31,359 nt of DNA from a virus: positions 1-31,359 of IMG/VR virus record IMGVR_UViG_3300032235_000767. The stretch is one strand, 5' to 3'. The first letter of the stretch is position 1, and each line of letters starts with the position of its first letter. Shown here one piece after another: positions 6,571 through 25,403 of the stretch. The position numbers and the translations under genes are program-made. The notes below the pieces were generated by a model, which did no database searches, had not been told where the DNA came from, and saw only the letters and a program-made list of their open reading frames with translations.

Positions 6571-6580
6571 TAAAATAGTA

Positions 6581-6619: not shown

Positions 6620-6647
6620 GTAATATACAAACTAAATAATAAATTAA

Positions 6648-8297
<1,650 letters not shown>

Positions 8298-8313
8298 AAT
8301 AAATGGAGAAAGG

Positions 8314-8345: not shown

Positions 8346-8367
8346 TAAAAACTTAAAATAAATTATA

Positions 8368-9081
8368 ATGGAAAAACAAAAATTAAATCGTTTCGTACAG
8401 AAGTACACTCTCGCTGGTTTGGTAGAATCAGTAAAATGGGAATCAAAAGATGGTTCTTTAAACACTTCATTCATTTCTGATGATAAATCCGTATTGGGTT
8501 CAGTTAGTATGCAAGAATTTGATGGTTCGAATGCAACACTTGGTGTGTATGATACCACAAAACTAACTAAAATGTTATCGGTTCTTGGTGATGGTGTAGA
8601 TTTTGCAATCCAAGATATTGATGGTAAGGCAGTATCTTTGAAATTTAAGGATAAATCCACATCAGTAAATTATATGTTGGCTGACCTTTCGGTTATTCCA
8701 AATGTACCTGATTTGAAACAACTTCCAAACTTTGATGTGAAGATTAAGTTGGATTCGGCTTTTATCAACACTTTTATCAAGGCCAAAGGTGCTCTTGCAG
8801 ATGAAAATAACTTTACATTTACTTTTAAGGGTGGTAAAGGACAAATTAGTATTGGACATTCTAATATCAATACTAACCGAATTGATATTGATGTTGATTG
8901 TGAGTGTGAAGGTGATATTCAACCAATCTCATTCTCAGCAACATACCTAAAAGAAATTCTTGTGGCTAACAAAGAGGCATCTGATGCTACATTGAATATT
9001 TCTACTCAAGGTCTTTCTCATATTCATTTTGAAATTGACCAATACACTTCAGATTATTATTTAGTTGAGATTCAATCCTAA
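8368..9081 (+). CDS. Sliding clamp, DNA polymerase processivity factor (T4 gp45-like)
   Basis: A 237-residue protein close in length to T4 gp45 (228). It starts MEKQKLNRFVQKYTLAGLVE and ends in HIHFEIDQYTSDYYLVEIQS, the pattern of a trimeric phage clamp with two PCNA-like folds per subunit. It has acidic and lysine-rich stretches but no catalytic motif, as expected for a DNA-encircling ring. Identification is strengthened by the clamp-loader pair about 2 kb downstream. It heads a promoter-led unit and would be the docking partner for the C-terminal peptide of the DNA polymerase and, if the peptide similarity is functional, of the TAGT glycosyltransferase at 2342-3715. Confidence 0.88.
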   Translation: MEKQKLNRFVQKYTLAGLVESVKWESKDGSLNTSFISDDKSVLGSVSMQEFDGSNATLGVYDTTKLTKMLSVLGDGVDFAIQDIDGKAVSLKFKDKSTSVNYMLADLSVIPNVPDLKQLPNFDVKIKLDSAFINTFIKAKGALADENNFTFTFKGGKGQISIGHSNINTNRIDIDVDCECEGDIQPISFSATYLKEILVANKEASDATLNISTQGLSHIHFEIDQYTSDYYLVEIQS

Positions 9082-9141
9082 TAATGAAGTTTTATACACG
9101 AAGTAAATTTTCTAATCATTACAAAAATAAAAATAAGTTAT

Positions 9142-9810
9142 ATGAAAGATTATTCAATAGAACAATTAGAAGAAAACTACAATAAATTTATTGAGTTTTT
9201 GAAGAAGGTGTTTAAAAATAACCCTGATAGATTAGAAAATTTACTTCATATGTATTCGGAAACCGAATTAGGAACCGAACTTACTATTGCCCCTGCAAGT
9301 GGGAAACTACATTTTCACTCTGCGTATGTAGGTGGTTATATTGACCATGTTATGAATGTGTGTAGAAATGCATTTGGTATCAAGAAACTATTTGCAGAAC
9401 AAGGTGGTAGAATCAATTTTACTGATGAAGAATTATTTTTTGCTGCACTTCATCACGATTTGGGAAAACTTGGTGATGGTGAGAAACCACATTATATCCC
9501 AGAAGAATCAGAGTGGCATAGAAAAAATCAAAACTCTGCATTTAAAATCAATCCCGAACTTTATTATATGGATGTGACTGATAGAGCACTTTGGTTGTTG
9601 AATCAGTATGGTATAAAATATTCTCAAAATGAAATGTTGGGAATTAAAATGGCAGATGGATTGTATAATGAAGGTGCCAAAAAATACTTTATCAATTACT
9701 CCGATGGTGGTGAATTGAAAACCGAACTTCCATATCTTATTCATTGGGCAGACCACATGAGTTGTAGAGTAGAAGGTAGTTTATATAAAAATTGGTTAGA
9801 GGGAAAGTAA
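9142..9810 (+). CDS. HD-domain metal-dependent hydrolase
   Basis: A 222-residue HD-superfamily protein. The metal site is visible as H69 (YIDHVMNV), H105-D106 (ALHHDLGK) and a late D204 (HWADHMSCR), the H...HD...D pattern of phosphohydrolases. Nearby H57 and H59 (LHFHSAYVGG) resemble the segment before the first ligand in YhaM-like nuclease HD domains. It lies 60 bases after the clamp and just before a TAGT glycosyltransferase in the replisome operon. Substrate is unknown: a nucleotide phosphohydrolase or a phosphodiesterase/nuclease are both possible. The leader ends in AAGTTAT before the ATG with no Shine-Dalgarno sequence. Confidence 0.78.
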   Translation: MKDYSIEQLEENYNKFIEFLKKVFKNNPDRLENLLHMYSETELGTELTIAPASGKLHFHSAYVGGYIDHVMNVCRNAFGIKKLFAEQGGRINFTDEELFFAALHHDLGKLGDGEKPHYIPEESEWHRKNQNSAFKINPELYYMDVTDRALWLLNQYGIKYSQNEMLGIKMADGLYNEGAKKYFINYSDGGELKTELPYLIHWADHMSCRVEGSLYKNWLEGK

Positions 9811-9815
9811 AATCA

Positions 9816-11045
9816 ATGAAAGTACACACTAGTAATAAAGAAAAAGTAAAAGAAATATTAGATAATACCCGAATCAAAGGTAAGTTCTGGGATTATACCT
9901 TGTATTATGAATTGGATTATGGCCACTTGAATGGGCATGATTTGGAAAACGATGATTGGTTTGATATGCCAGAATTCAAGTGGTCTGATTCATTACACGA
10001 TAGGTATGTATTTGAGGTTCAGTTAAATAATGAGATGGAACGTGCTGAGTTCTTTAAAATGTTTAACCATAACCCAACTGTGCACAATTACATTCATTAC
10101 GAGTTAGATGAGCACCCATTAAAGGAACACGAATACGAGTTCACCCATAAGATACATCCAAAGTATCCTATTTATGTTATTACAAAGGGTAGATGGGAGA
10201 AAACTATGACTATTGATTCGCTTGAAGAGATGGGTATTGATTTTCGTATTTGTGTAGAACCTAGTGAATATGATAATTATATTGCAAATCCAAGAATAGA
10301 TATCAACAAAGTAATCAAATTACCTGAGAATTTTAGTGAAAGAAAACAAGGTGGTATCCCTGTGAGAAACTTTGTATGGCATCATTCAGTAGAAAGAGGG
10401 TATGAAAAACATTGGATTATTGATGATAACATCTTGGGATTTTTTAGATGGAATGAGAATACCCAAAAGAAGGTAAAAGATGGTGTATTTTTTAGAATCA
10501 TGGAAGATTTTAGTGATAGGTATGAAAATCTAGGATTAGTATCTTGTCAGTATGCATCATTCATTCCAGCAATAGATGTTGGTAGAGGTCAATTCATTAG
10601 AAATACGCGTACTTATTCTTGTATCCTAATCAACTCAAAGTTATTAGATGAACGATTGGAAGAGCGATGGAGAGGCACTTATAACGAAGATACTGATTTA
10701 TCCCTTAGAGTATTATCAACTGGAGATTTGTGTACCGTAAACTTCAATGCCCTATTATCGGGTAAACAAACAACGGGTAGTATGAAAGGTGGAAATACCA
10801 CTACTATTTATGAATTCGGTAAAGATTCCCAACAAGATAAGTTTAGTGGATTACAAAAAAAGTTTGATGAGTTAAAGAAAAATTGGGGAGACATCGTAAC
10901 TTTTACAAATAAGAGACACAAAGATGGAAGACCACATCATCATATTGACTATACTAAATTGTTTAAACAAGAATTAGTATTAAAGAAGGGGATTGAAAGA
11001 ACCCCAAAGGTAAACAATTATAATATGAAATTAGTTAAAAAATAA
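9816..11045 (+). CDS. TAGT-family glycosyltransferase (putative DNA-base glycosyltransferase), copy 2
   Basis: Paralogue of the protein at 2342-3715. Shared landmarks in order: YPIYVITKGRWEKT, RNFVWHHSVERGY, IIDDN (D203-D204-N205), FSDRYENLGLV, RWRGTYNEDTDLSLRV (N290-D294), SMKGGNTTTIY and VNNYNMK. These fit the TAGT glycosyltransferase pattern, members of which are linked to sugar addition on modified DNA bases. It ends right after VNNYNMKLVKK and lacks the FFSF-bearing extension of copy 1. I chose the ATG at 9816, five bases after the HD gene stop and preceded by an AGAGGG at 9798-9803; an in-frame TTG at 9792 would add eight residues and overlap the HD gene. Position among replisome genes supports a DNA-directed role. 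Confidence 0.78.
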   Translation: MKVHTSNKEKVKEILDNTRIKGKFWDYTLYYELDYGHLNGHDLENDDWFDMPEFKWSDSLHDRYVFEVQLNNEMERAEFFKMFNHNPTVHNYIHYELDEHPLKEHEYEFTHKIHPKYPIYVITKGRWEKTMTIDSLEEMGIDFRICVEPSEYDNYIANPRIDINKVIKLPENFSERKQGGIPVRNFVWHHSVERGYEKHWIIDDNILGFFRWNENTQKKVKDGVFFRIMEDFSDRYENLGLVSCQYASFIPAIDVGRGQFIRNTRTYSCILINSKLLDERLEERWRGTYNEDTDLSLRVLSTGDLCTVNFNALLSGKQTTGSMKGGNTTTIYEFGKDSQQDKFSGLQKKFDELKKNWGDIVTFTNKRHKDGRPHHHIDYTKLFKQELVLKKGIERTPKVNNYNMKLVKK

Positions 11046-11050
11046 TCCTC

Positions 11051-12001
11051 ATGGCATTCTTTGCAGATAATAACGAAACACAAAAACCAGATAATTCACT
11101 TTGGGTAGAACAATACAGACCAACTACCTTGGAAAACTATGTTGGTAACGAACACCTAAAAGATAAAGTAAAGGGTTATATTGAAAGTGGTGATGTTCCA
11201 CATCTACTTCTTTATGGAAGGGCAGGTACTGGTAAAACTACACTAGCCAAATTGATTACAAAATCGGTAGAGTGTGATTATATGATTATCAATGCATCTG
11301 ATGAAAACAATGTGGATATGGTAAGAAACAAAGTAAAGGGTTTTGCCTCTACCGTTGGATTCAAACCATTGAAAATTGTTATCCTCGATGAGTTTGATTA
11401 TATGTCTCAGAACGCACAAGCAATTCTAAGAAACTTGATGGAAACATTTTCCAAACATTGCCGTTTCATTTTGACTTGTAATTATGTAGAGAAAGTAATT
11501 GAACCAATCCAATCTCGTTGTCAAACTTTCCAAATTGTACCTCCAACTAAGAAGGATGTTGCAATTCAAATTTCTAAAATTCTTAAATCTGAAAATGTAA
11601 AGTTTGAACCAAAGGATTTAGTACCTATTATTGATGCTGGTTATCCTGATATTCGTAAGATTATCAATACTTGTCAATTAAATTCGCACAAAGGAGAATT
11701 AAAGGTAGATGTCCAAAACTTATTGGAAAACGATTACAAGATGAAAATCTTGGATATTCTTAAATCAAATGATGATAAAAGAAATCGTTATATGAAACTC
11801 AGACAAACCCTGATTGATAGTAGAGTGACAGATTTTACTGAATTGTTTACCCTACTTTATGATAAGGTAGATGAATATGCACCATCAAACACTGCTAATG
11901 TTATCATCGCCCTTTCACAAGGACAAACTAATCATTTTCATTCCATAGATAAAGAAATCCCTATGGCCGCTTGTTTGATTGAAATAAATTCTTTATTGTA
12001 A
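11051..12001 (+). CDS. Clamp loader ATPase subunit (T4 gp44-like, RFC family)
   Basis: A 316-residue AAA+ ATPase that loads the sliding clamp. Seen: WVEQYRPTTLENYVG at the N-terminus (typical of RFC/gp44 proteins), Walker A GRAGTGKT (56-63), Walker B VILDEFD (110-116), sensor 1 ILTCNY (140-145) and the SRC arginine-finger motif (S155-R156-C157). Length matches T4 gp44 (319). It starts five bases after the TAGT stop and ends with a TAATG junction shared with the next gene, so small and large subunits are translationally coupled as in T4. Function is secure from motifs plus gene order. Confidence 0.96.
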   Translation: MAFFADNNETQKPDNSLWVEQYRPTTLENYVGNEHLKDKVKGYIESGDVPHLLLYGRAGTGKTTLAKLITKSVECDYMIINASDENNVDMVRNKVKGFASTVGFKPLKIVILDEFDYMSQNAQAILRNLMETFSKHCRFILTCNYVEKVIEPIQSRCQTFQIVPPTKKDVAIQISKILKSENVKFEPKDLVPIIDAGYPDIRKIINTCQLNSHKGELKVDVQNLLENDYKMKILDILKSNDDKRNRYMKLRQTLIDSRVTDFTELFTLLYDKVDEYAPSNTANVIIALSQGQTNHFHSIDKEIPMAACLIEINSLL

Positions 12002-12450
12002 TGGCAAAATCACTTTTTGATCATATCAAGGCAGTGACCCAAGAACAAGACCCAAAGTATTGGGATAAATTGGATGAATCAGATAGAAAATCGTGGAGCA
12101 ATTACATGATATTCCGATTCCTTTCAATGAATCCTGATTGGGTTGGTATGGTTGCTCAATTACAACCATATCTACAAGAAGTACCACCAAAGGCTTGTTA
12201 CTTGGCATTGATTGATTTGATTCCTAAGACTCGGGCCTTTCTAAAATACATGAAGGCCAAATCGGAAGATTCATACGAAAAGTGGTTAGTTGAATTAGTA
12301 TCAAAACATTACGAAACAAACCAAATACAATCAGAAGAGTATCTAAAAATTTTATATAATTCGCGTAAAGGCAGAGAACGAGTAAAAGAGTTATGTGAAA
12401 TGTATGGAGTAGAACCTAAAGTTATAACAAAATTAAAACTAAATATATAA
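12001..12450 (+). CDS. Clamp loader small subunit (T4 gp62-like)
   Basis: A 149-residue, largely helical protein with no ATPase motif, overlapping the gp44-like gene by one base (TAATG). In T4, gp62 is the non-ATPase subunit of the loader and is encoded directly after gp44. Segments such as YLALIDLIPKTRAFLKYMKA and WLVELVSKHYETN correspond in style to gp62 (a basic-aromatic KYxKW stretch followed by LAKRYQVN). It is shorter than T4 gp62 (187 residues). The call depends as much on position as on sequence. Confidence 0.75.
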   Translation: MAKSLFDHIKAVTQEQDPKYWDKLDESDRKSWSNYMIFRFLSMNPDWVGMVAQLQPYLQEVPPKACYLALIDLIPKTRAFLKYMKAKSEDSYEKWLVELVSKHYETNQIQSEEYLKILYNSRKGRERVKELCEMYGVEPKVITKLKLNI

Positions 12451-12451
12451 T

Positions 12452-12751
12452 ATGGAAACAAATTTTCAACCACTTGGTGACAGAGTTTTAGTAAAACCAG
12501 ACCAAGTAGAACAAAAATCAAAAGGAGGATTGATTCTAAATGATTCAATCAGTAGAGGACAGAAAATTGTAGGAGAAGTCATTGCAGTTGGTACTGGATT
12601 ATTTTCTCAAACTGGTAATTCAATTCCAATGAGTGTGAATGTTGGTGATAGAGTTCTTTATTCAAAAGATGAGGCAACTAATAAACTGAAATTGGGTGAT
12701 GAAGAATACTTATTATTCAGAGAACATGAACTAATTGGAATTTTAAAGTAA
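12452..12751 (+). CDS. groES: Co-chaperonin GroES (phage-encoded)
   Basis: A 99-residue Cpn10 protein: FQPLGDRVLVKPDQVEQKSK at the start, the mobile-loop hydrophobic tripeptide in GGLILND (binds GroEL), GEVIAVGTG, VNVGDRVLYSKDEATNKLKL and a C-terminal beta strand ELIGILK. It is recognisably bacterial-type GroES, unlike the divergent T4 gp31. It sits one base after the gp62-like stop and overlaps the next gene by one base (TAATG), so it is expressed with the clamp loader rather than with groEL, which lies about 4 kb upstream. Confidence 0.95.
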   Translation: METNFQPLGDRVLVKPDQVEQKSKGGLILNDSISRGQKIVGEVIAVGTGLFSQTGNSIPMSVNVGDRVLYSKDEATNKLKLGDEEYLLFREHELIGILK

Positions 12752-13191
12752 TGACATCAAAAGAATTCGTCCTTTGGTTACAAGGATTTACTCAAGGAGT
12801 ACATGAATACAATATAACACCCAAACAATGGGATGCATTAAAAGATACATTGGCAAAGGTTAATGATGAACCAACACTAACTTTTCCAATCAATACTCCA
12901 AATACTGCACCAAATACACATTCGTTTCCTACTTGGCAACATCCACATTTAGTTAATGTTCCAAACTTAGGCCCAAATAATCCATTTACAGTAAATGGTA
13001 ATCCGGTTTCATTTGGAACAACAACTGGTGATAGTTCTATTACATACGCAACTCCACAATTTGTAACATTAACTACATCTGGAACTGCATCTGGATATCC
13101 GAGTGGGAGTAGTTGGCACTATACCCTCACACAAACAGAACCAACTCCATCAACTTCTGGAAAACAATTACTAACTGAAAATCAAAATTAA
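12751..13191 (+). CDS. Small phage protein with conserved N-terminus and low-complexity tail
   Basis: Residues 1-40 (FVLWLQGFTQGVHEYNITPKQWDALKDTL, split here by its own motif FVLWL and TPKQW) resemble a short helical module that recurs in small phage proteins of unknown function. Residues about 45-146 are rich in Thr, Pro, Ser, Asn and Gly, with few charged residues, and look disordered. Overlap with groES is one base (TAATG). No enzymatic motif, signal peptide or membrane segment is visible. Function unknown. Confidence 0.7.
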   Translation: MTSKEFVLWLQGFTQGVHEYNITPKQWDALKDTLAKVNDEPTLTFPINTPNTAPNTHSFPTWQHPHLVNVPNLGPNNPFTVNGNPVSFGTTTGDSSITYATPQFVTLTTSGTASGYPSGSSWHYTLTQTEPTPSTSGKQLLTENQN

Positions 13192-13203
13192 AATACAAGT
13201 TAT

Positions 13204-14274
13204 ATGAATTATCATCTTACTTACGATGACATCCAATTAGTACCACAATATTCTCATATTCCTTCCAGAACCCAAATCAATCTCAACACTCTCGTATCAA
13301 GAAGATATGGTCTTTTAAATCCACTCGTAGCGTCTCCAATGGATACGGTATGCGGAGAAGAAATGGCCTTCAAAATGTTCTTGATGGGGGGTGTTGGTTG
13401 CATTCATAGATTCATGAGTATTGAAGAGCAATCCATAATTGTAAAATCATTATATTATAAAATTTATGGAGAAGGCTTCGGTGGACCTTTTGAAGATTGG
13501 GGTATAATGTATGATACATGGCATTCAGAAATTGCCCAAATACCTATTATGGCTGCAATAGGAGTATCAGAATCAGATAAAGAACGAGCCAAATCACTAG
13601 TTGATAGCGGAGCAAATATCCTTGTGATAGATGTTGCTCATGGTCACCACAAAAATGTTTTAGAAATGATAAAGTGGTGTAAAAACAATCTTGATGACAA
13701 AGTTGATATCATAGCTGGTAATATCGCTACTGCCCAAGCTGCAATGGATTTAGAAAAAGCAGGAGCAGATGGGCTAAGAGTTGGTATCGGTGGAGGTTCA
13801 CTTTGTACAACAAGAATAAAAACAGGTTTTGGTATACCAAATGTAAGTTGTTTGGAGGAAATCATTAAAGTTGCTAAAACTCCTGTTATGGCAGACGGGG
13901 GGATTAGAACATCTGGTGATATTTCTAAAGCACTTGCATTGGGGTCAAGTTCTGTAATGTTGGGTTCATTATTAGCAGGAACAGATGAAGCTCCTGGTAA
14001 AATAATTGAAACTCCAAAAGGTCTCTACAAAAGATATAGAGGTTCGGCATCGTTAGAGACTAAATCGGTTCATGGGCAACAAGAAAGAAATGTGGAAGGA
14101 GAATCAACAACAATCCCATACAAAGGTGGAGTAAAATTCATCATCAATGGTTTATTGGATGGTGTGAAATCCGCATTATCTTATGGAGGTGCGAGTTCAT
14201 TAAAAGAATTCAGACCCCCGTATGTTGTAGTGACGAATTCGGGAATCAATGAGGCAAAACCACATTTATTGTAG
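13204..14274 (+). CDS. IMP dehydrogenase / GMP reductase family enzyme
   Basis: A 356-residue TIM-barrel purine enzyme. Seen: LTYDDIQLVPQYS at the start, ASPMDTV, the catalytic loop GIGGGSLCTTR with C201 (the usual GPG is GGG), MADGGIR, and YRGSAS followed by EGESTTIPYKGG. The two CBS domains of typical IMP dehydrogenase are absent. The flap between YRG and the PYKG motif is short and lacks the Arg-Tyr pair that IMP dehydrogenase uses to activate water, resembling GMP reductase in length and arrangement; total length also fits GMP reductase (about 347). I favour GMP to IMP reduction, but a CBS-less IMP dehydrogenase is possible. It lies in the replisome operon, preceded by AAGTTAT next to the ATG. 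Confidence 0.88.
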   Translation: MNYHLTYDDIQLVPQYSHIPSRTQINLNTLVSRRYGLLNPLVASPMDTVCGEEMAFKMFLMGGVGCIHRFMSIEEQSIIVKSLYYKIYGEGFGGPFEDWGIMYDTWHSEIAQIPIMAAIGVSESDKERAKSLVDSGANILVIDVAHGHHKNVLEMIKWCKNNLDDKVDIIAGNIATAQAAMDLEKAGADGLRVGIGGGSLCTTRIKTGFGIPNVSCLEEIIKVAKTPVMADGGIRTSGDISKALALGSSSVMLGSLLAGTDEAPGKIIETPKGLYKRYRGSASLETKSVHGQQERNVEGESTTIPYKGGVKFIINGLLDGVKSALSYGGASSLKEFRPPYVVVTNSGINEAKPHLL

Positions 14275-14318
14275 AGTAGTAAAGTGTTATGTTTAATTTA
14301 AAAAAAAAGAAAAAAAGT

Positions 14319-17300
14319 ATGAAAAACAATTTAAAAAACTTAATGAAGTTTAGTTTTGTTACTTTGCTCATGTTGATGATGAGTTTTACTGCGTATTCGC
14401 AGGGGGTAACAACTGCTAGTATTTCAGGTCAAGTTGGGTCAAACGAAGGTGAATCATTGCCGGGAGCAGTAATTACCGCAGTACATACCCCATCTGGAAC
14501 TAAATACAATGCGGTATCTAACACGGAAGGTAGATATTTCATTCCAAACATGAGAATTGGTGGACCTTATGTAGTATCTACATCCTTTATTGGTTATTCC
14601 GTATCAAAAGTAGATGGTGTATTTTTGAGTCTCGGTGTAACCTCAAATTTAGATTTTTCATTAAAAACTGAAGAATCAGTATTAGGTGAAGTACTCGTTG
14701 TAGGTGAAAAAAATCCAGTATTTAGTTCTGAAAGAACTGGTGCATCCACTGGTATTACCAATCAAAACTTGAATAGATTGCCAACTATTTCAAGAAGTAT
14801 TAATGATTTTACACGATTGACTCCGCAAGCATCTGGTAACTCTTTTGCTGGACAAGATGGTAGATTGAACAACATTACAGTCGATGGTTCTTACTTCAAT
14901 AACTCATTTGGTTTGGGTTCTGGTTCTAACCCAGGTGGTAGAACAGGTGTATCTCCAATCTCATTGGATGCAATTGAACAAATTTCAGTAAATGTGGCAC
15001 CTTATGATGTGAGACAAGGTAACTTTACTGGTGCTGGTGTAAACACCGTAACCCGTTCAGGTACAAACGAATTCTCTGGTTCTGCTTACTATTTTTGGAG
15101 AAATAATAACAATGTAGGAACTAAGGCAGGTGAAAACACCTTCAACCCTGGTGATTTTACTTACAAACAACAAGGTTTCAGAGTTGGTGGTCCAATTGTT
15201 AAAGACAAACTATTTTTCTTCGCATCTTACGAAGATGACTCGGAAACAAGACCAGGTACTACATGGAGAGCTAATAATGGAAGTGAACCAATTACTGGTA
15301 ATGTAACTCGTGTTCTTAAATCCGATTTAGATGGATTGAGTACTTTCCTAAGAGATAAATTTGACTACGAAACTGGTCCTTATCAAGATTATGATAACGA
15401 AACTTTATCTCAAAAATTCTTGGTAAAGTTTGACTACAACATCAACGATAAGAACAAATTGAGTTTGAGATACAACCACTTAGATTCGTCTACTGATGTC
15501 TTGATGTCAGGTTCTTCCTCTCTAGGTTTCGGTAACCGTAACTTCAGACCTGAGGCTTTGAACTTCCAAAACTCAAACTACAGCATCATGGAGAATATTC
15601 GTTCCGTAGTTGCTGAATTGAATACAAAAGTTAGAAGTAATGTAAGTAATAACTTGATTGTTGGTTATACCTACCAAGACGAAAGCCGTGGATATAAAGG
15701 AGAATTCTTCCCAATGGTTGACATTCTAAACAATGGTGCAACTTATACTTCATTTGGGTTTGAACCATTTACACCAAACAATGAACTTAGATATAAAACT
15801 TTCCAAGTTCAAAACAACCTTCAGATTTTTGCTGGAAACCATACAATTACAACTGGTTTCACTTATGAAAAGTATCAATCTGAAAACGTGTTCTTCCCTG
15901 GTTCTCAATCAGTATATGTTTATAACTCTTTAGATGATTTCTACAAAGACGCAAACAACTTCTTGGCAAACGGAAATAAAACTGCTTCAGGAGTTAATTT
16001 GAGAAGATTCCAAGTAAGATGGAATAACATTCCTGGTTCCGAAAAGCCAGTTCAACCTTTAGAGGTAGATTATTTCGGACTTTATGCTCAAGACGAGATT
16101 CAAGCAAGAAAGAACCTTAAATTTACTGCAGGTTTAAGATTTGATATTCCCTACTTCGGTGAAACTGCACTAAGAAACCCTGAAGTGGAAACAATGTATT
16201 TCAGAAACGAAGATGGTAGATTTGTTAATTTCAGAACAGACCAACTTCCTGAGCCAAATATTTTATGGTCTCCACGAGTAGGTTTCAACTGGGATGTTTT
16301 CAGTAATCAAAAAACTCAGTTTAGAGGTGGTTCGGGTGTATTTACTGGCCGTCCAGCGTATGTATGGATTTCCAATCAAGTTGGTAACAACGGTATCTTG
16401 ACTGGTTTTGCTCAATTGGATAACACAACTACAAGACCATTTAATCCTAATCCTGATGCATACAAACCAACTCAAGTTTCAGGTACACCGGCATCTTCTT
16501 ACGAACTTGCTTTGACCGAACCTAACTTCAAATTCCCTCAAGTTTGGAGAACAAATGTGGCAGTTGACCAAAAATTACCTTTGGGAATCATTGCTACTGC
16601 AGAATTTATTTATAGTTCTGATGTAAATGGTGTGGCATATTATAATGCAAACCTACCTGTGGCAACTTCACAATTTAATGGACCTGATAATAGATACAGA
16701 TGGGCTGGTAACAGAATCAACTCAAAGATTCCTAATGCAGTTACACTTTCTAACCAAGCTCTTGGATATTCCTGGGTAGGTTCATTCTCATTGGAAAGAC
16801 CATTTAGTAATGGGTTGTTTGTTAAAGGAGCTTATAGTTATGGTGAAACCAAAAATACAGTAGACCCAGGTTCAATTGCATCAGGTACTTGGTTTGGTAA
16901 CCCTATCACATCCGACCCTAACAATCCTGGACTAGGTTTCTCTTCCAACTTCATGGGCCATAGAGTATTTGCTACCGCTAGTTATAGTAAAGATTTCTTC
17001 AAATTCGGTAATACTTCAGTTTCCGTATTCTGGGAAGGTAGAACTCTTGGAAATGCAAGTTATGTATTCGGTGGTGACTTGAATAATGATGGAGGTACAT
17101 CAAATGACCTTATCTATATTCCAGCTACAAAAGAGGAAATGAATTTCCAACAATATACTGCAAGTGGAAAAACATTTACCGCTGCTGAACAAGCAAATGC
17201 ATGGGAAGCGTATATTCAACAAGATAAGTACCTAAGTGCAAACAGAGGTAAATATGCAGAAAGAGGAGCTGTAATCATGCCGATGATTTATAGAGCAGAT

Positions 17301-17606
17301 TTATCTTTCGCACAACAATTATTTACTAATATCAAAGGAAAGAAAAACGCCTTGGAATTCAGAGTCGATGTTCTTAACTTGGGTAACTTGTTGAACTCTG
17401 ATTGGGGTATTGGACAAACATTCAATACAACTCAACCATTGGTTGTACCTTCATCTGCACAAGGTGGACCGGCAAGTGCCGATGGAAGACCTCAATACAG
17501 ATTGAGAAACTTTGGTACTGATTTAGTTACAACAACTTACAGACCAACCGTAGGAGTATCCGATGTATGGAGAATGCAATTCGGTTTAAGATATAGTTTT
17601 AATTAA
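14319..17606 (+). CDS. TonB-dependent outer-membrane receptor, Oar-like
   Basis: A complete receptor of about 1095 residues. A signal peptide (KNNLKNLMKF, then hydrophobic VTLLMLMMSF, cleavage near AYSQ) is followed by a carboxypeptidase-regulatory-like beta-sandwich (SGQVGSNEGESLPGAVI to about residue 110), a TonB-box-like GEVLVVGE, a plug with GQDGRLNNITVDG and SLDAIEQISVNVAPYDVRQG, and a long beta-barrel ending MQFGLRYSFN, a typical Bacteroidota barrel end. It would import a ligand across the outer membrane using host TonB; the ligand is unknown and no SusD partner is nearby. I use the ATG at 14319 because it starts a classical signal peptide; an in-frame ATG at 14289 adds ten Lys-rich residues. 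The gene closes the replisome transcription unit and is followed by a terminator. Such a receptor inside a phage genome is unusual. Confidence 0.95.
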   Translation: MKNNLKNLMKFSFVTLLMLMMSFTAYSQGVTTASISGQVGSNEGESLPGAVITAVHTPSGTKYNAVSNTEGRYFIPNMRIGGPYVVSTSFIGYSVSKVDGVFLSLGVTSNLDFSLKTEESVLGEVLVVGEKNPVFSSERTGASTGITNQNLNRLPTISRSINDFTRLTPQASGNSFAGQDGRLNNITVDGSYFNNSFGLGSGSNPGGRTGVSPISLDAIEQISVNVAPYDVRQGNFTGAGVNTVTRSGTNEFSGSAYYFWRNNNNVGTKAGENTFNPGDFTYKQQGFRVGGPIVKDKLFFFASYEDDSETRPGTTWRANNGSEPITGNVTRVLKSDLDGLSTFLRDKFDYETGPYQDYDNETLSQKFLVKFDYNINDKNKLSLRYNHLDSSTDVLMSGSSSLGFGNRNFRPEALNFQNSNYSIMENIRSVVAELNTKVRSNVSNNLIVGYTYQDESRGYKGEFFPMVDILNNGATYTSFGFEPFTPNNELRYKTFQVQNNLQIFAGNHTITTGFTYEKYQSENVFFPGSQSVYVYNSLDDFYKDANNFLANGNKTASGVNLRRFQVRWNNIPGSEKPVQPLEVDYFGLYAQDEIQARKNLKFTAGLRFDIPYFGETALRNPEVETMYFRNEDGRFVNFRTDQLPEPNILWSPRVGFNWDVFSNQKTQFRGGSGVFTGRPAYVWISNQVGNNGILTGFAQLDNTTTRPFNPNPDAYKPTQVSGTPASSYELALTEPNFKFPQVWRTNVAVDQKLPLGIIATAEFIYSSDVNGVAYYNANLPVATSQFNGPDNRYRWAGNRINSKIPNAVTLSNQALGYSWVGSFSLERPFSNGLFVKGAYSYGETKNTVDPGSIASGTWFGNPITSDPNNPGLGFSSNFMGHRVFATASYSKDFFKFGNTSVSVFWEGRTLGNASYVFGGDLNNDGGTSNDLIYIPATKEEMNFQQYTASGKTFTAAEQANAWEAYIQQDKYLSANRGKYAERGAVIMPMIYRADLSFAQQLFTNIKGKKNALEFRVDVLNLGNLLNSDWGIGQTFNTTQPLVVPSSAQGGPASADGRPQYRLRNFGTDLVTTTYRPTVGVSDVWRMQFGLRYSFN

Positions 17607-17628
17607 GTAAAGAGATATTTATAACTCG

Positions 17629-17655
17629 GGGGAGGGCATAATCCTCCCCTTTTTA
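17629..17655 (+). terminator. Intrinsic terminator after the TonB-dependent receptor
   Basis: GGGGAGG (17629-17635), loop GCATAAT, CCTCCCC (17643-17649), then TTTTT (17650-17654). A perfect 7-pair GC-rich stem with a U-tract, the only strong intrinsic terminator I found in the window. It begins 22 bases after the receptor stop and ends just before the ATG at 17658. Confidence 0.93.
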
Positions 17656-17657: not shown

Positions 17658-18365
17658 ATGAATACATCAGAATTATTTACCGTAGTCATACCTTCTTATA
17701 ATGAGGAAAGGTATATATACAATACTTTGTGGTATTTATCAAGACAAAATCTTAAAACAAAAATTCGTGTTATTATTTGTGATGCAAACTCAACTGATAA
17801 AACACTAGAACATATATCAAAAGCAGATAACGATTTTGAAAACCTTGAAATAGAAATCAGAACTGGTGGAAGTGTAGCCTATGGTAGAAATAAAGGAGCA
17901 GAATTAGTTAATACACCTTTTATTCTATTTTTAGATGCAGACTCAGTTTTATTAAACCCAGACACAATATCAGAAACTCTACAAAATGCATTTGATTATG
18001 ATATCATTGGTTGTAAACTAAAATCAACTATTGATGGTCTATACTCTTGGTTAACTTGGAAAGGTTTTGAATTTATAAGAAGGATAATGCCAGAAACATT
18101 TTGTACTGGTTGTTATTTTTTCATATCAAAACAAAAATTTATCCAATTGGGTGGATTTAATGAAACATTACAAAACTCCGAAGATTTTTGGTTGAGTAAA
18201 CAAATACCAAAATCAAGATTTAAACTACTTGATAAATACATCGGACAAGATGATAGACGATTTAAAAAAATGGGAAACCTTTCATTTCTAAAAAATATTA
18301 TTTTAACTTATTTGAATAAGAATAATATAAATTGGTTTAGAAATGATGTAGGATATTGGAAATAG
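17658..18365 (+). CDS. Glycosyltransferase family 2 protein
   Basis: A 235-residue GT-A fold glycosyltransferase. Seen: VVIPSYNEERYI at the start, CDANSTDKT, GRNKGAELVNTPFILFLDAD with DAD at residues 93-95 (metal and nucleotide-sugar binding), a TGCYFFISKQKFIQLGGFNE segment and a following ED (NSEDFWL), the likely catalytic-base region. It transfers a sugar from a nucleotide donor; acceptor unknown. The ATG is three bases after the terminator U-tract, so its own expression depends on read-through or on a promoter not recognised here. It ends in TAG and is separated from the next gene by a weak promoter. Confidence 0.88.
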   Translation: MNTSELFTVVIPSYNEERYIYNTLWYLSRQNLKTKIRVIICDANSTDKTLEHISKADNDFENLEIEIRTGGSVAYGRNKGAELVNTPFILFLDADSVLLNPDTISETLQNAFDYDIIGCKLKSTIDGLYSWLTWKGFEFIRRIMPETFCTGCYFFISKQKFIQLGGFNETLQNSEDFWLSKQIPKSRFKLLDKYIGQDDRRFKKMGNLSFLKNIILTYLNKNNINWFRNDVGYWK

Positions 18366-18376
18366 TATTAAAGATA

Positions 18377-18408
18377 TTAGGATTATAGGAAAAAAATTCG
18401 TATATTTA
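18377..18408 (+). promoter_or_regulatory. Degenerate Bacteroidota-type promoter
   Basis: TTAG at 18377-18380, a 20-base gap, then TATATTTA at 18401-18408, preceded by TTCG. The last base of the -7 element and the -33 box each deviate from consensus, but spacing and the TTCG prefix match the other promoters. The next ATG is 20 bases downstream. Confidence 0.55.
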
Positions 18409-18428
18409 CTCAATAAACTATAAACTAT

Positions 18429-18779
18429 ATGATATACAATCCTGAAAATCCACTAACCGAAGAAGAATTAGATAAACTTGGTAATGAAGATTTTGATAGT
18501 TTCCTTGATTATCTTGACCAAAAAGCCAATTATCTCAAACAATTTACAAAGCCATTAGATACTTATCATTTGAAGAAATTTGCTTCATTAGATGCTACTG
18601 ATAAGGGTGAGATGTTAAATGATGATGATATTGCTAGACTAAACAAGTTGGGTAGAAAAAACGAAGAAATTGGGTTTGATAAAGAAATTCATCAAGATTG
18701 GATTAAAAAGAAAAATGAAGTATTAAAAAACACTGGTGTAAAAAATGTAAAGACACACCGTTCACAATGGTTTGATTAA
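18429..18779 (+). CDS. Hypothetical protein, 116 residues
   Basis: An acidic N-terminal half (PLTEEELDKLGNEDFDSFLD) and a lysine-rich C-terminal half, mostly predicted helical with no cysteine pair, membrane segment or enzymatic motif. I do not recognise a family. It starts behind a weak promoter and is followed after 12 bases by the zinc-ribbon gene and then the radical SAM gene, so the three probably form one transcript. Confidence 0.7.
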   Translation: MIYNPENPLTEEELDKLGNEDFDSFLDYLDQKANYLKQFTKPLDTYHLKKFASLDATDKGEMLNDDDIARLNKLGRKNEEIGFDKEIHQDWIKKKNEVLKNTGVKNVKTHRSQWFD

Positions 18780-18791
18780 ATAAAAAAAGTT

Positions 18792-19040
18792 ATGGCACAA
18801 TTAATAGGTAATAAAAACCAACAACCTCAACAACCAAAAATAGATTTATCACAGGCAAAAGAAATCACTTGTCAGAATTGTGGTGGTACTATTTTTATCA
18901 ATGGAAATAAATTCCTTAAAATTCCTAAAATATCAGCAGGTACACCACAAGATGTTTTGATTCCCGTAGAAGTATTTCTATGCGGAGATTGTGGAGAACT
19001 ATGTGAAGAACTATTGCCAAAGGAATTTAAAACCAAATAA
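18792..19040 (+). CDS. Small zinc-ribbon protein
   Basis: An 82-residue protein with two CxxC knuckles, C27-QN-C30 and C64-GD-C67, separated by about 33 residues, which fits a single zinc ribbon. The first 20 residues are Gln- and Pro-rich and probably flexible. Proteins of this kind are common in T4-like phages but without known role. It overlaps the radical SAM gene by one base (TAATG), so translational coupling and perhaps functional association are likely. The leader has AAGTT directly before the ATG. Confidence 0.75.
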   Translation: MAQLIGNKNQQPQQPKIDLSQAKEITCQNCGGTIFINGNKFLKIPKISAGTPQDVLIPVEVFLCGDCGELCEELLPKEFKTK

Positions 19041-20302
19041 TGAATTCAAATAGTAATACTTTTTGTATTTTACCATTTGTTCATTTGTATGCAGAGCCAA
19101 AGGGTGAAATGAAACCTTGTTGTATAGCAGGTGGATTTGATATACCTTTGGATCTAAAAACAATGTCTATCGATGAATCTTTCAATTCTAATCAAATGAA
19201 AGAACTTCGTAAAGATATGTTACAAGGTAAACGAAATAAAGTATGTGATGTTTGTTATAAAAGAGAGGATACAACTGGACATTCACCACGATTGGATTTT
19301 AATAATAATCCTTTGTGGGTTCTTCCAACAATAAATGAAGATTATAGTGTCCCATCCCAATTTCAACATTTAGATGTTAGATTTTCTAATCTATGTAATT
19401 TTAAGTGTAGAATGTGTAATCATAACTTTTCATCAAATTGGTATGAAGATTATGGTAAGATAAGAGAAGAGCATCAACTTAAAGATTATCCAAAAATATT
19501 TAAGGTATCTGAAACAATTGCACAAGACTTAAAAGTGCATTTATCTGATATAAAAAGTATTTACTTCGCAGGAGGTGAGCCTTTAATCATGCCAGAACAT
19601 TTTGAAGTTCTTAAATATTTGTATGATACAATGCCAATTCAAGAATTTCAATTAAGTGCAACCGAATTTTTTTCTGCTAGAAATTTATCAATTCACTATA
19701 ACACGAATCTTTCAGTAATTAAATACGATGAACAAAGTTTAATTGATTTGTGGAAAGGATTTTATAAAGTATTTCTATCAATTTCGTGTGATGGTGTTAA
19801 AGAGGTAGGTGAGTACCAAAGAACAGGTTTGAATTGGAAACGATTTGAACAGAACTTAAATACAATAAAAAAATATGCCAATCCGAAAAATGTACAAGAA
19901 CCTAGTACTGGTTTAAATTACAATTTTCAATATACAACTACACTTTGGAATGTTTACCATATTTTTGATTTTATAAACTATATGTTAGATAAGGAACATA
20001 TCACAAGTTCCGAACATTTAGATTTTTATTACGCATGGGGACCTTCATTTTCTGCTTTAAACACTTTACCGAAAAATGAGAAAACCAAAATTATATCATT
20101 TTTAGAAACTGGTAGTGAAAAAAATAAACTTTCTGAAAAAACTAAAAGGGAAATTAAACAAATAATAGATTTTACTAATTCATTTGATGGGTCTTTTGAA
20201 GATGAGATATACAATAAGACAAGAGTATTGGATGAAATGAATAAAACTCACTGGTCAGTTCTAAAAGGTATTGATTTTGATTCATTAATTTCTAAAAAAT
20301 AG
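19040..20302 (+). CDS. Radical SAM enzyme with N-terminal cysteine (twitch/SPASM-like) region
   Basis: A 420-residue protein. The radical SAM motif CNFKCRMC (C119, C123, C126) would bind the 4Fe-4S cluster that cleaves S-adenosylmethionine, and FAGGEPLI is the GGEP SAM-binding motif. An N-terminal block, FCILPFVHLYAEPKGEMKPC with C9, C27, C28 and then C69 and C72 (VCDVC), looks like an auxiliary-cluster (twitch/SPASM-type) region placed before the core rather than after it. Substrate is unknown; relatives occur in phages and in glycan or peptide modification clusters. The preceding zinc-ribbon gene overlaps it by one base. Confidence 0.88.
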   Translation: MNSNSNTFCILPFVHLYAEPKGEMKPCCIAGGFDIPLDLKTMSIDESFNSNQMKELRKDMLQGKRNKVCDVCYKREDTTGHSPRLDFNNNPLWVLPTINEDYSVPSQFQHLDVRFSNLCNFKCRMCNHNFSSNWYEDYGKIREEHQLKDYPKIFKVSETIAQDLKVHLSDIKSIYFAGGEPLIMPEHFEVLKYLYDTMPIQEFQLSATEFFSARNLSIHYNTNLSVIKYDEQSLIDLWKGFYKVFLSISCDGVKEVGEYQRTGLNWKRFEQNLNTIKKYANPKNVQEPSTGLNYNFQYTTTLWNVYHIFDFINYMLDKEHITSSEHLDFYYAWGPSFSALNTLPKNEKTKIISFLETGSEKNKLSEKTKREIKQIIDFTNSFDGSFEDEIYNKTRVLDEMNKTHWSVLKGIDFDSLISKK

Positions 20303-20313
20303 ATAGCGAAAGA

Positions 20314-20345
20314 CTTGATAATTCCAATTTTTTTTCGTATATTTG
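20314..20345 (+). promoter_or_regulatory. Bacteroidota-type promoter for the Cas4-like nuclease
   Basis: CTTG at 20314-20317, a 20-base gap, then TATATTTG at 20338-20345, preceded by a T-tract and TTCG. The ATG lies 18 bases downstream. Confidence 0.75.
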
Positions 20346-20363
20346 TAGTATAAAATATATCAA

Positions 20364-21221
20364 ATGGCAAAGGTAAGTTATTCTCAATACAGCATGTGGT
20401 CTTCTTGTCCACAACAATTCAAGTTGAACTATATTGATAAGTTAGGTGAAAGTTCGGCAAATATCCACACAATTTTCGGTTCTGCAATGCACGAAACCAT
20501 ACAACATTTTTTATCAGTAATGTATGGTGTGACAAAGAAACAAGCATTAGAACTAGATTTGGAGATGATGTTGAAAGATAAATTAGTAGAACATTTCACC
20601 AAAGAAAAAGAAAAACTAACCGAAGGTACTCCGTGTACTCGTGAAGAGTTGGAAGAGTTTTACGGTGATGGTAGACAAATTATCCAATACTTTAAATCCA
20701 AATTAGATAACCTATATACCAAGAGTGGATTTGAGTTGGTGGCAATAGAAATGCCACTAAATGCACAAATCAAAGAGGGTGTACATTTTATCGGTTTTAT
20801 TGATATTGTACTAAAAGATGTATCAAGTGGCGAGATTATTATCGTAGACTTAAAAACATCTACTAATGGTTGGAACAAGTACCAAAAGGCAGATAAGATA
20901 AAAACATCTCAAATGTTATTGTACAAAAAGTTCTATTCAGAAAAGTATGATATACCATTAGAAAAAGTAAAAGTAGAATATCAGATTCTAAAAAGAAAAC
21001 TTATGGAATCTACCGATTATGCTATTCCTCGTATTTCTAAATTCATTCCACCACATGGTAAACCATCGGTAAATCTTGCATGGAAGGGGTTTATGGAATT
21101 TGTAGATACCGTGTATGATGATGGCGGGTTGATTCGTACTGATAATTTCCCAACAAATAAAGGTAAGGCTTGTAATTGGTGTGAGTTTAAAACAAGAAAA
21201 CTTTGTCCAATATGGCAATAA
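20364..21221 (+). CDS. PD-(D/E)XK nuclease, Cas4/RecB-like with probable Fe-S cluster
   Basis: A 285-residue nuclease. It starts with SYSQYSMWSSCPQQFKLNYI, typical of Cas4 and AddB/RecB nuclease domains, followed by the helical GSAMHETIQHFL. The active site is in GFIDIVLKD and VDLKTS (D162-L-K164, the D-x-K of PD-(D/E)XK). One N-terminal cysteine (C15) and three C-terminal ones (C270, C273, C281 in CNWCEFKTRKLC) match the four ligands of a Cas4-type 4Fe-4S cluster. It is probably an exonuclease for recombination-dependent replication or host DNA degradation. No cas1, cas2 or repeat array is present, so a CRISPR adaptation role is unsupported. It is a single-gene unit with its own promoter. 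Confidence 0.88.
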   Translation: MAKVSYSQYSMWSSCPQQFKLNYIDKLGESSANIHTIFGSAMHETIQHFLSVMYGVTKKQALELDLEMMLKDKLVEHFTKEKEKLTEGTPCTREELEEFYGDGRQIIQYFKSKLDNLYTKSGFELVAIEMPLNAQIKEGVHFIGFIDIVLKDVSSGEIIIVDLKTSTNGWNKYQKADKIKTSQMLLYKKFYSEKYDIPLEKVKVEYQILKRKLMESTDYAIPRISKFIPPHGKPSVNLAWKGFMEFVDTVYDDGGLIRTDNFPTNKGKACNWCEFKTRKLCPIWQ

Positions 21222-21241
21222 TTTTCGTTTTTATATATTTG
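21211..21241 (+). promoter_or_regulatory. Possible weak promoter for the RHH and glycosyltransferase unit
   Basis: A good -7 element, TATATTTG at 21234-21241, lies 35 bases before the ATG at 21277. The upstream box is poor (TATG at 21211-21214, 19-base gap) and overlaps the end of the nuclease gene. Confidence 0.4.
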
Positions 21242-21276
21242 TATATATTTATATAAAATACATAAAAAGGAGAGTT

Positions 21277-21471
21277 ATGGCAGAAACAAAATTAACCACG
21301 GTAAAAATCTTAAAAGATGTTTACTCTAAATTTAAAAGAGTTTCGTTTGATTCCAATATCACATTACAAAAAATTGTAAATCGTTCACTAGAACTATATA
21401 CAAATGATGATGAGTATCAAACGAAAATTAATGAATTTACCGAACTGCAAGCAAGTGGTTCACAATTTTAA
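21277..21471 (+). CDS. Small ribbon-helix-helix-like protein
   Basis: A 64-residue protein starting at the ATG behind AAGGAG (21267-21272), a clear Shine-Dalgarno. The pattern LTTVKILKDVYSKFKRVSFD then ITLQKIVNRSLELY, an N-terminal strand with two amphipathic helices, resembles RHH (Arc/MetJ-type) DNA-binding proteins. It may be an autoregulator of the unit it heads. The assignment rests on predicted secondary structure and length, not on a diagnostic motif. Confidence 0.6.
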   Translation: MAETKLTTVKILKDVYSKFKRVSFDSNITLQKIVNRSLELYTNDDEYQTKINEFTELQASGSQF

Positions 21472-21483
21472 AAAAGTTATATA

Positions 21484-22875
21484 ATGATAGAAGAAAAAGG
21501 AAAGAAAAAGATTCTTTTATTATCAGATGATTTAAGAATGACATCTGGTATTGCAACCGTTTCAAAGGAATTGGTTTTTGGTACATTTGAAAAATACCAT
21601 TGGATACAATTAGGAGCAGCAGTAGAACATCCTGAAAAGGGTAGAGAAATTGATTTAGGAGAAGACGCACGAAATATTAGTGGTATTTCAGACGCTTCTC
21701 TTAAAATTATTCCATGGAGTGGATATGGTGATGCAAACATTTTAAGAGAACTTATGATGAGACATCAACCTGATGCAATTCTACACTTTACTGACCCTAG
21801 ATATTGGAGATGGTTGTATGAAATCGAACATGAAATCAGACAAAATATTCCAATTCTATTCTACCATATTTGGGATGACCTTCCAGACCCTAAGTATAAT
21901 AGAGATTATTATGAATCTTGTGATTGGTTGGGTTGTATTTCAAAACAAACGTATGGTATCGTAAATCGAGTTGGAAAAATTGAATCACCAACTAACAAGA
22001 CACTTGAAGATTGGCAAGTTTCGTATGTACCCCATGGTATTAATTCCGAAACATTTAAACCAACTGAAGTACCTGCTGAATTCAAAAAAGAATTTTTTGG
22101 TGATAAGGATTATAAGTTCGTCTTATTCTGGATGAACCGAAATATCAAAAGAAAACAACCTTCTGATGTGATTTGGGCATTTAAACGATTTGTTGATGGA
22201 CTACCTGAAGGAGATAAAGATAAGGTTTGTTTGGTAATGCACACTGCACCAATTGACCAAAACGGAACTGATTTATTCAAGGTAGCAGAAACTATTGCAC
22301 CGGGATGTGATATTAAGTTCTCGGCTAATAGAATCAATCAACAACAATTAAATTGGATTTACAATCTATCAGATGTTACAATTAACATTGCAGGTAATGA
22401 AGGATTTGGTTTAGTAACTGCAGAATCAGTAATGGCTGGAACACCAATCATTGTAAATGTTACTGGTGGATTACAAGACCAATGTGGATTTAAGATTGAT
22501 GGTAAGTATTTAACCGCCGATGATTATATTAAGATTGGGTCTCTACATGATTACCGATTGTGGGAAGATAAAGTAACACATGGTGAGTGGGTAAAACCAG
22601 TATGGTCAAGAACTCAATCAATGGTAGGTTCAGTTCCAACTCCTTATATTATTGATGATAAGGTAGATATTTATGAAACTGCAGAGGCAATTCGTTATTG
22701 GTACGATAAAACACCTGAAGAACGAAAGGCTGCTGGTTTGAAAGGTAGAGAAGAATTTTTGGGTGAAATGGGATTGAATCATAAAAATATGTGTCAAACA
22801 CTAATTGATGGTATTGAAACCACATTCGAAAATTGGAAACCAAAAGATAGATTTACTATTCATAAATTAAAATAA
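21484..22875 (+). CDS. Glycosyltransferase, GT4-like (GT-B fold)
   Basis: A 463-residue retaining-type glycosyltransferase. Seen: a Rossmann-like start KILLLSDDLRMTSGIATVSK, VSYVPHGINSETFKP at the linker, a second-domain strand KFVLFWMNRNIKRKQP and the donor-site E-x7-E signature EGFGLVTAE (E306, E314), then GTPIIVNVTGG. The acceptor is unknown. It starts 12 bases after the RHH gene and two bases before the dUTPase gene, in a long run of sugar genes. A second GT4-like protein is encoded at 23576-24832 with the same E-x7-E arrangement. Both belong to the group used for surface or virion glycans, though DNA or protein acceptors are not excluded. Confidence 0.9.
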   Translation: MIEEKGKKKILLLSDDLRMTSGIATVSKELVFGTFEKYHWIQLGAAVEHPEKGREIDLGEDARNISGISDASLKIIPWSGYGDANILRELMMRHQPDAILHFTDPRYWRWLYEIEHEIRQNIPILFYHIWDDLPDPKYNRDYYESCDWLGCISKQTYGIVNRVGKIESPTNKTLEDWQVSYVPHGINSETFKPTEVPAEFKKEFFGDKDYKFVLFWMNRNIKRKQPSDVIWAFKRFVDGLPEGDKDKVCLVMHTAPIDQNGTDLFKVAETIAPGCDIKFSANRINQQQLNWIYNLSDVTINIAGNEGFGLVTAESVMAGTPIIVNVTGGLQDQCGFKIDGKYLTADDYIKIGSLHDYRLWEDKVTHGEWVKPVWSRTQSMVGSVPTPYIIDDKVDIYETAEAIRYWYDKTPEERKAAGLKGREEFLGEMGLNHKNMCQTLIDGIETTFENWKPKDRFTIHKLK

Positions 22876-22877
22876 AA

Positions 22878-23303
22878 ATGAAAGTAAAAATAAAAAAATT
22901 ACATCCTAATGCAGTAATTCCCACTTATGCAAAAAGTGGGGATGCTGGATTAGATTTTGTAGCAACTAAAGTAATAAGTGAAGAAACTTATTCAATCACA
23001 TTTGGTACAGATATTGCCGTAGAAATACCTGAAGGATTTGTAGGATTAGTATTCCCACGTTCATCAATTAGAAAATATGAATTGAATTTAAGTAATTCAG
23101 TTGGTGTAATTGATAGTGGATATAGAGGTGAGTTACAAGCTACATTTAGAAAAACACATGGTGATGCATCAGAGACATATAATGTAGGAGATAAGATATT
23201 CCAAATGATTATTGTACCTTACCCACGAGTAGATTTTATTGAAGTAGATGAACTATCGGATACCGAAAGAGGTGAAGGTGGATTTGGTTCAACTGGAAAG
23301 TAA
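22878..23303 (+). CDS. dut: Deoxyuridine triphosphatase (dUTPase)
   Basis: A 141-residue trimeric-type dUTPase that hydrolyses dUTP to dUMP, limiting uracil incorporation and feeding thymidylate synthesis. All five motifs are present: AGLDF (1), PRSSI (2), GVIDSGYRGE (3, with the catalytic aspartate), GDKIFQMII (4) and the C-terminal RGEGGFGSTG (5), so it should be active. It is out of place among glycosyltransferase genes, but short spacings (2 bases upstream, 1 base downstream) show it is part of the same transcript. Known phage counterparts normally sit with nucleotide-metabolism genes. Confidence 0.96.
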   Translation: MKVKIKKLHPNAVIPTYAKSGDAGLDFVATKVISEETYSITFGTDIAVEIPEGFVGLVFPRSSIRKYELNLSNSVGVIDSGYRGELQATFRKTHGDASETYNVGDKIFQMIIVPYPRVDFIEVDELSDTERGEGGFGSTGK

Positions 23304-23304
23304 T

Positions 23305-23583
23305 ATGAGTAAACCCGTATTAGTAATTCGTTTTCCTGGTTATTGGAAAGAAGTTCAATGGGATATTTCTCGTAAAGCAATTTATGATAATAGACCATTA
23401 AACGAAGATTATCATGTGATGGTGCTGGTTGATAATGAGGTAGAAGAAGTAAAGTTTGAATGTTACAATTCTCCACATGAACTAGAAAAGTTAGAAGAAA
23501 TTACAAAGTTAGTCAGAATGTCTATTGAAAGATGTTTGAGACAAGAAGAAGATTTAAGAAAAAAACAAAAAGAAAATGAGTAA
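23305..23583 (+). CDS. Hypothetical protein, 92 residues
   Basis: A small, charged protein starting at ATG 23305, one base after the dUTPase stop; an earlier in-frame start at 23248 would lie inside dUTPase and is not needed. The N-terminal half (VLVIRFPGYWKEVQWDIS) looks strand-rich; the C-terminal 40 residues are helical and Lys/Glu-rich, possibly a coiled coil. No family recognised. It overlaps the next glycosyltransferase by eight bases, and both proteins begin MSKP-[VL]-LV, probably chance. Confidence 0.65.
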   Translation: MSKPVLVIRFPGYWKEVQWDISRKAIYDNRPLNEDYHVMVLVDNEVEEVKFECYNSPHELEKLEEITKLVRMSIERCLRQEEDLRKKQKENE

Positions 23584-25401: not shown

Positions 25402-25403
25402 AT

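Follow-up and report, generated by a model that had tools for sequence, protein, structure and literature searches.

The locus at positions 14319-17606 raises the question of why a virus should encode a complete TonB-dependent transporter, a protein of the bacterial outer membrane, directly behind its replication genes. It lies on the + strand of a linear 31,359-bp IMG/VR virus record, which was analysed over its whole length and is referred to here as the window. We consider there to be about an even chance (probability of approximately 0.5) that the gene is a phage copy of a host transporter that would sustain nutrient uptake during infection, in a role resembling that of psbA in cyanophages.

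The gene encodes an Oar-type TonB-dependent transporter of 1095 amino acids followed by a stop codon, as identified by Pfam matches (PF25183 and PF13620) and an AlphaFold model. An open frame runs without interruption from 14289 to 17606; however, one base is missing between 14289 and 14319 in each of the two related contigs L003 and L010, so that the ATG at 14289 does not share the frame there. The upstream start was therefore rejected, and 14319, which alone stays in frame in these relatives, was adopted as the right one, in agreement with the single uninterrupted frame of about 1095 codons described in the initial annotation. The predicted signal peptide (residues 1-27; 14319-14399, +) would be cleaved before Gln28, which is invariant in the aligned homologues (125/125) and whose position agrees with the Bacteroidetes Q-rule (PMC5837995). 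It is followed on the same strand by an N-terminal CarboxypepD_reg domain at 14418-14666 (PF13620, 57.7 bits), the TonB box region GEVLVVGE at 14685-14708 (residues 123-130), of which the E-V-x-V type core is retained in most of the phage and host copies compared, a plug domain at 14724-15074 (residues 136-252), and a 22-stranded beta barrel with 11 extracellular loops at 15075-17603, for which the Oar-like barrel family PF25183 (OMP_b-brl_4) scored 158.2 bits against a curated cut-off of 30. The plug HMM (PF07715) scored 20.3 bits, slightly under the Pfam cut-off of 23.9, and the plug was recognised in the predicted structure and by matches to solved TonB-dependent transporters. The AlphaFold model, for which 125 homologues were the input and from which the strands and loops of the barrel were taken, had a pLDDT of 88.7 and a pTM of 0.84, with 22 barrel strands assigned by DSSP. 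A structure search with this model gave solved TonB-dependent transporters as the top PDB matches (FusA, E of 9.7e-33; YddB, 7e-29), whereas a profile search of the PDB sequences gave no match. Thus, the features that define a TonB-dependent transporter, namely an export signal with a TonB box, a 22-strand barrel and a plug, are all present, the fold being that of the predicted model, and the locus is a complete Oar-like transporter gene with all of its modules, for which energised transport through TonB-ExbBD would be expected. This bears out the intact receptor that had been proposed from the sequence, with signal peptide, beta-sandwich, TonB box, plug and barrel, and supplies the structure prediction that had been suggested as a check. 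In L003 (2283-5480), predicted extracellular loop 5 is shortened by an in-frame loss of 30 residues, at around residues 543-572.

The genes upstream include those for a T4-type DNA polymerase (phrog_262) and GroEL and, all on the + strand, for a gp45-like sliding clamp at 8368-9081 (phrog_947, 4.2e-6), the clamp loader subunits gp44 at 11051-12001 (phrog_168, 5e-79) and gp62 at 12001-12450 (phrog_225, 1.3e-16), GroES at 12452-12751 (PF00166), and an IMPDH/GMP reductase at 13204-14274 (PF00478), which forms the left flank of the insertion site; the right flank is formed by a GT2 glycosyltransferase at 17658-18365 (+; PF00535). The neighbours named in the initial annotation, namely clamp, clamp loader, GroES and a GMPR-like gene, were thus confirmed by Pfam and PHROG matches. 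A Bacteroidota-type promoter motif, TTTCGTATMTTTG, which is a strong repeated extended Bacteroidota -7 box, was matched 13 times in the window against 3.9 expected, a count reached in 0 of 100 shuffles, and a scan of the window for sigma-70-type promoters gave no excess. Its sites at 2307, 3735, 6558, 8333, 20333, 26051 and 30985 (+) stand before many phage genes; those at 6558 and 8333 precede GroEL and the clamp, respectively, and the relative L005 has the motif at both places too. The promoter-like copy upstream of the clamp gene, TTTCGTATCTTTG (8333-8345, +), is presumed to initiate the unit whose final gene is the transporter, the next exact copy being that at 20333; weak copies, each with two mismatches, lie at 10242 (within a gene) and 18396. 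Directly 3' of the transporter gene lies an intrinsic terminator hairpin of 9 pairs with a T run (17628-17650, +), and no strong phage-type promoter was found between the 8333 motif and this hairpin. Therefore, the transporter gene most likely closes a unit of approximately 9 kb spanning 8333-17650, so that its suggested co-transcription with the replication genes is probable. GroEL (6657-8297) and GroES share one region of this phage, and in other phages (L185, L253 and L183) GroEL was found directly 3' of the transporter.

The same arrangement in related phages, which the initial annotation had proposed looking for, bears on whether a bacterial gene has been joined to a phage contig by misassembly or contamination. 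Close relatives of the transporter are encoded on 10 IMG/VR contigs, and the left flank is common to the window and 7 of these (L002-L006, L008 and L010), as is the right flank, where the contigs reach far enough, except in L002. A very close relative, L096, has an empty site (5550-5939), at which the IMPDH stop codon is followed by a terminator-like hairpin equivalent to that of the window (GGGAGG...CCTCC and a T run) and then directly by the GT2 gene, with no transporter, the flanking DNA being 94% (IMPDH) and 90% (GT2 start) identical to the window. Because L005, which is more distant from the window (86%), carries the transporter gene at this position, loss of the transporter in L096 is the simpler reading, and its absence there indicates that the transporter is dispensable. 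The repeated flanks and the empty site argue against an artefact, as do the occurrence of the T4-type capsid gene gp23 and terminase on the same contigs as the transporter in many relatives and the phage-like GC3 of the gene. The point in favour of an artefact is L002 (3323-6610), in which the phage lineage changes within the transporter gene, window-like upstream and L007-like downstream, with the identity to the window, 92-99% over roughly the first two thirds of the gene, falling to 86-90% thereafter; this contig is either a natural recombinant or an assembly chimera, so that one or the other does occur. Misassembly was thus rejected on the grounds of synteny, the empty site and hallmark genes, and we regard it as extremely improbable, with L002 retained as a caution.

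A profile search of IMG/VR with the phage copies gave at least 105 confirmed viral stretches, of which at least 80 loci were kept, many of them on contigs of 100-321 kb. Among 31 transporter-bearing records tested, gp23 was present in 18 and terminase in 21, whereas gp23 was matched in 0 of 14 control genomes; terminase and transporter also occur together on the 28-kb contig L007 and the 34-kb contig L009. A search of INPHARED with three transporter types as queries matched only unannotated fecal fragments. The carrier of the window gene is a large T4-like virus of Bacteroidota.

The origin of the phage copies was examined in a tree of 186 proteins (FastTree), in which they formed 6 virus-only clades, each within a different Bacteroidota branch. 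The virus/cell label needs 6 changes on this tree, all forced by well-supported branches, and the result was unchanged with 48 further cellular homologues. The transporters thus appear, on the sequence evidence, to have been captured by viruses six separate times, a number that is an estimate, given the use of FastTree and the length of some cellular branches, and that could rise or fall with sampling. The sister group of the window clade is Algoriphagus-type Cyclobacteriaceae, and Algoriphagus-type genomes hold the nearest cellular copies to the window protein (73-82% identity). Freshwater Flavobacterium and its relatives form the sister group of the largest virus clade (42 rows), for which the best identity among 150 Flavobacterium genomes was 59-60%, and another virus clade lies near Chitinophagales, with a best identity of 64%. 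One full-length copy per genome was found in the Algoriphagus and Flavobacterium genomes checked, and the host orthologue is a solitary gene that stands beside the same housekeeping genes in all Algoriphagus-type genomes compared (18 of 18). The neighbours in Algoriphagus, namely aspS, an alpha/beta hydrolase-like gene and RND efflux genes, point to no substrate. The composition of the phage copies has shifted to phage values, with a GC3 of 0.25-0.33 compared with 0.36-0.56 in hosts.

Exchange of the gene between phages is indicated by the terminases, which split the transporter phages into two T4-like lineages that are approximately 28% identical. Flavobacterium-type transporters are present in both lineages, and window-type transporters are found in lineage B (L007 and L009) and in the window, which itself was assigned to lineage A through its clamp loader, with 84% identity to the counterpart in G015, a record of 271 kb. 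In L182, the terminase shares 94% identity with that of L007, whereas the transporter is only approximately 70% identical to the window clade. Fixed loci also hold different types: ClpA-M20-c1-[T]-c17/c8/M23, in which T stands for the transporter, holds the window, L182 and Flavobacterium types, helicase-c27-[T]-kinase holds the Chitinophagales and Flavobacterium types, and c14-[T]-kinase holds two types. We infer that the transporter type may be matched to the actual host. An AAA_28 kinase-like gene lies directly 3' of IMPDH in L101 (at approximately 12790), and in several other phages a gene of the same family closely follows the transporter.

The pairwise dN/dS was 0.034-0.081 among the window-clade phage copies and 0.04-0.08 among hosts, values which indicate that the phage copies are under purifying selection at the host level, as judged from substitution patterns. 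As a host-derived gene on a genuine phage genome and under selection, as seen in the tree, the hallmark genes and the dN/dS, the transporter gene is a candidate auxiliary metabolic gene. The regions of the protein have diverged unequally. Between the window and host L012, the identity was 86.7% in the loops, 83.2% in the strands, 88% in the plug, 59.8% in the N-terminal domain and 40% in the TonB-box region, whereas between hosts the pattern was reversed, with 80-81% in the loops and 90-93% in the N-terminal domain. For the window clade as a whole, identity to hosts was 59-61% in the N-terminal domain and 30-40% in the TonB-box flanks, compared with 90-93% and 80-85%, respectively, between hosts. 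Fixed differences, defined as sites conserved within both groups but differing between the window clade and the clade of its hosts, amounted to 0/263 in the loops, 4/200 in the strands and 5/47 in the N-terminal domain and TonB-box region. The contrast between loops and strands was modest (p = 0.034; 0.003-0.04 at other thresholds), and that between the loops and the N-terminal domain with the TonB-box region was strong (p = 6.6e-5). The large Flavobacterium-type phage clade compared with 5 Flavobacteriales hosts showed no loop/strand contrast (p = 0.54-0.75), so that the result on loop conservation rests on the window clade; in this large clade, loop variation was no higher than that of the strands (0.61 versus 0.62 bits). 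The plug was the most conserved region in the phage copies, with an entropy of 0.05-0.24 bits. Taken together, in the window clade the modelled extracellular loops appear to have stayed close to those of the host, in contrast to the diverged N-terminal domain in the periplasm, and no altered or masked receptor surface was found at the comparable loop sites.

A second phage-borne TonB-dependent transporter, of the OMP_b-brl_3 type and 827 aa in length, was also observed in many related phages (L326-L405, and, together with a lipoprotein-like gene, in L007 at 6047-7240 and 7240-9720 on the - strand). It was confirmed in 117 viral stretches, and at 69 of 80 loci it is accompanied by an adjacent 398-aa surface-lipoprotein-like gene, as is typical for uptake systems. 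Among 15 large contigs tested, gp23 was present in 8 and the first transporter in 0, and at least 9 other contigs hold both families. Beyond the transporter, the window is dense from 17658 to 31313 in glycosyltransferases, with a sugar epimerase, a UDP-sugar dehydrogenase-like gene, a nucleotidyl-transferase and a radical SAM gene, a run that suggests sugar synthesis or glycosylation by the phage. Two further glycosyltransferases, at 2342-3715 and 9792-11045, are paralogous (approximately 40% identical), and the latter matches PF20691, a TET-associated glycosyltransferase family, which hints at modified phage DNA.

If the phage copy serves nutrient uptake, it would be transcribed by the phage as the last gene of the replication/chaperone unit, exported by the host through Sec and signal peptidase I, inserted in the outer membrane by the host BAM machinery, and energised, as expected, by the host TonB-ExbBD. 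A copy with the extracellular surface of the host would have the ligand specificity of the host, and it would keep or raise nutrient uptake after the shut-off of host gene expression, as psbA does with photosynthesis in cyanophage infection; phages would take the gene from hosts repeatedly and swap it when the host changes. This reading fits best because it is in line with a gene that was captured repeatedly and whose plug and TonB-box core are intact, a second family with a lipoprotein-like partner, and change on the inside rather than the outside of the protein. Since the N-terminal domain and the TonB-box flanks are strongly diverged, energising may differ in the window clade, which tells against this reading. 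It also counts against the uptake reading that, to our knowledge, no ligand is known for the Oar-like transporters of Bacteroidota, that the gene is dispensable, as L096 shows, and that no inner-membrane transporter or enzyme naming a substrate is adjacent to the window gene. A further point against it is that Myxococcus Oar, the best-studied Oar, is needed for protein export, the secretion of the protease PopC requiring it (PMC6434023). Export of a phage-made or host protein across the outer membrane in infection would accord with this and with the Oar-like family (PF25183), and FusA, which takes up a whole protein, is among the best PDB matches; however, no conserved candidate cargo gene stands beside the transporter, the neighbours differing among phage loci, and we consider export unlikely.

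The initial annotation had offered, beside nutrient import, a role in superinfection exclusion, in which the phage-made transporter would mask or replace the host receptor so that rival phages no longer adsorb. TonB-dependent receptors are common phage receptors (PMC11658791), phages do alter receptors, and glycosyltransferase genes adjoin the transporter. However, a masking copy should change outside, in its loops, whereas the window-clade copy changes inside, the loops being its best-kept part relative to the host, and the loops are not hypervariable among phages. Known receptor blockers of phages, such as T5 Llp and Cor, are small proteins, which also counts against exclusion. Of the two proposed roles, import is therefore the better supported, and masking or replacement is disfavoured and held to be improbable. 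It could also be supposed that the gene product takes the place of an abundant structural protein of the outer membrane once the host has been shut off, transport being irrelevant. The solitary, single-copy host gene and the full length of the phage copies would suit such envelope maintenance, but the plug and the TonB-box core, needless for a purely structural role, have been kept, and there is little likelihood that this is the function. Extending the uptake reading, it is conceivable, although we offer it tentatively, that large T4-like Bacteroidota phages install host-matched outer-membrane transporters as a general strategy, two unrelated families serving as exchangeable cassettes at fixed loci that are swapped per host, with the outer face of the host kept and the periplasmic energising side rewired to the advantage of the phage; equally tentative is that an authentic surface on infected cells or vesicles may spread the phage's own receptor.

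Compared with the cellular Oar-like transporters of Bacteroidota (PF25183; M. xanthus Oar), the window copy has the same domain order, length, barrel family, signal peptide and TonB box, but it is phage-encoded, stands in a replication operon and has a diverged N-terminal domain. The cyanophage genes psbA and psbD are core host genes that have been captured repeatedly, are under purifying selection and are swapped between phages; the transporter is alike in these respects, whereas the psbA/psbD products are photosynthesis proteins rather than outer-membrane transporters and their function is proven, that of the transporter being proposed here. The porin Lc/NmpC of the lambdoid prophage PA-2, which brings about lysogenic conversion with receptor replacement, is likewise a phage-encoded outer-membrane protein but has no plug or TonB dependence. 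A "TonB-dependent receptor (SusC)" has already been noted in the megaphage Mar_Mega_1, for which raised uptake was proposed (PMC9723777), and is the one clear precedent for a phage-encoded TonB receptor that we found in the open-access literature. Thus, the statement in the initial annotation that no well-described phage carries an intact receptor of this kind needs correction in view of Mar_Mega_1 and the at least 80 phage-borne copies. The sole strong structural match to the window protein among viral proteins (BFVD) was a "TonB-dependent receptor SusC [uncultured marine phage]", with 12% identity over the structural alignment. The putative SusC-type receptor of Mar_Mega_1 and LR745206 is likewise phage-borne; the window protein had no match in LR745206, in which the relative is of the second family (26.7% identity to the 826-aa transporter). 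No SusD lipoprotein lies next to the window gene, the neighbours being IMPDH and GT2 with no NCBIfam match, and the locus thus lacks the lipoprotein of a SusCD glycan import system. The open-access literature searched yielded no description of the Oar-like family in phages, of how widely it is distributed, or of its separate captures and swapping, and the repeated capture and allele swapping of a transporter appear to be undescribed.

These findings concern a group of genes, the auxiliary genes of phages, that are mostly known as cytoplasmic enzymes, whereas here a large outer-membrane transporter has been taken over repeatedly. TonB-dependent receptors are usually the doors by which phages enter, and here phages carry the door with its outer face unchanged. 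The presence of the same cassette, fitted to the host, in two deeply separated lineages could serve as a host marker in the genomes of uncultured large phages, and the function can be tested in the culturable genera Algoriphagus and Flavobacterium. More broadly, infection by such phages may reshape the uptake of the cell from outside.
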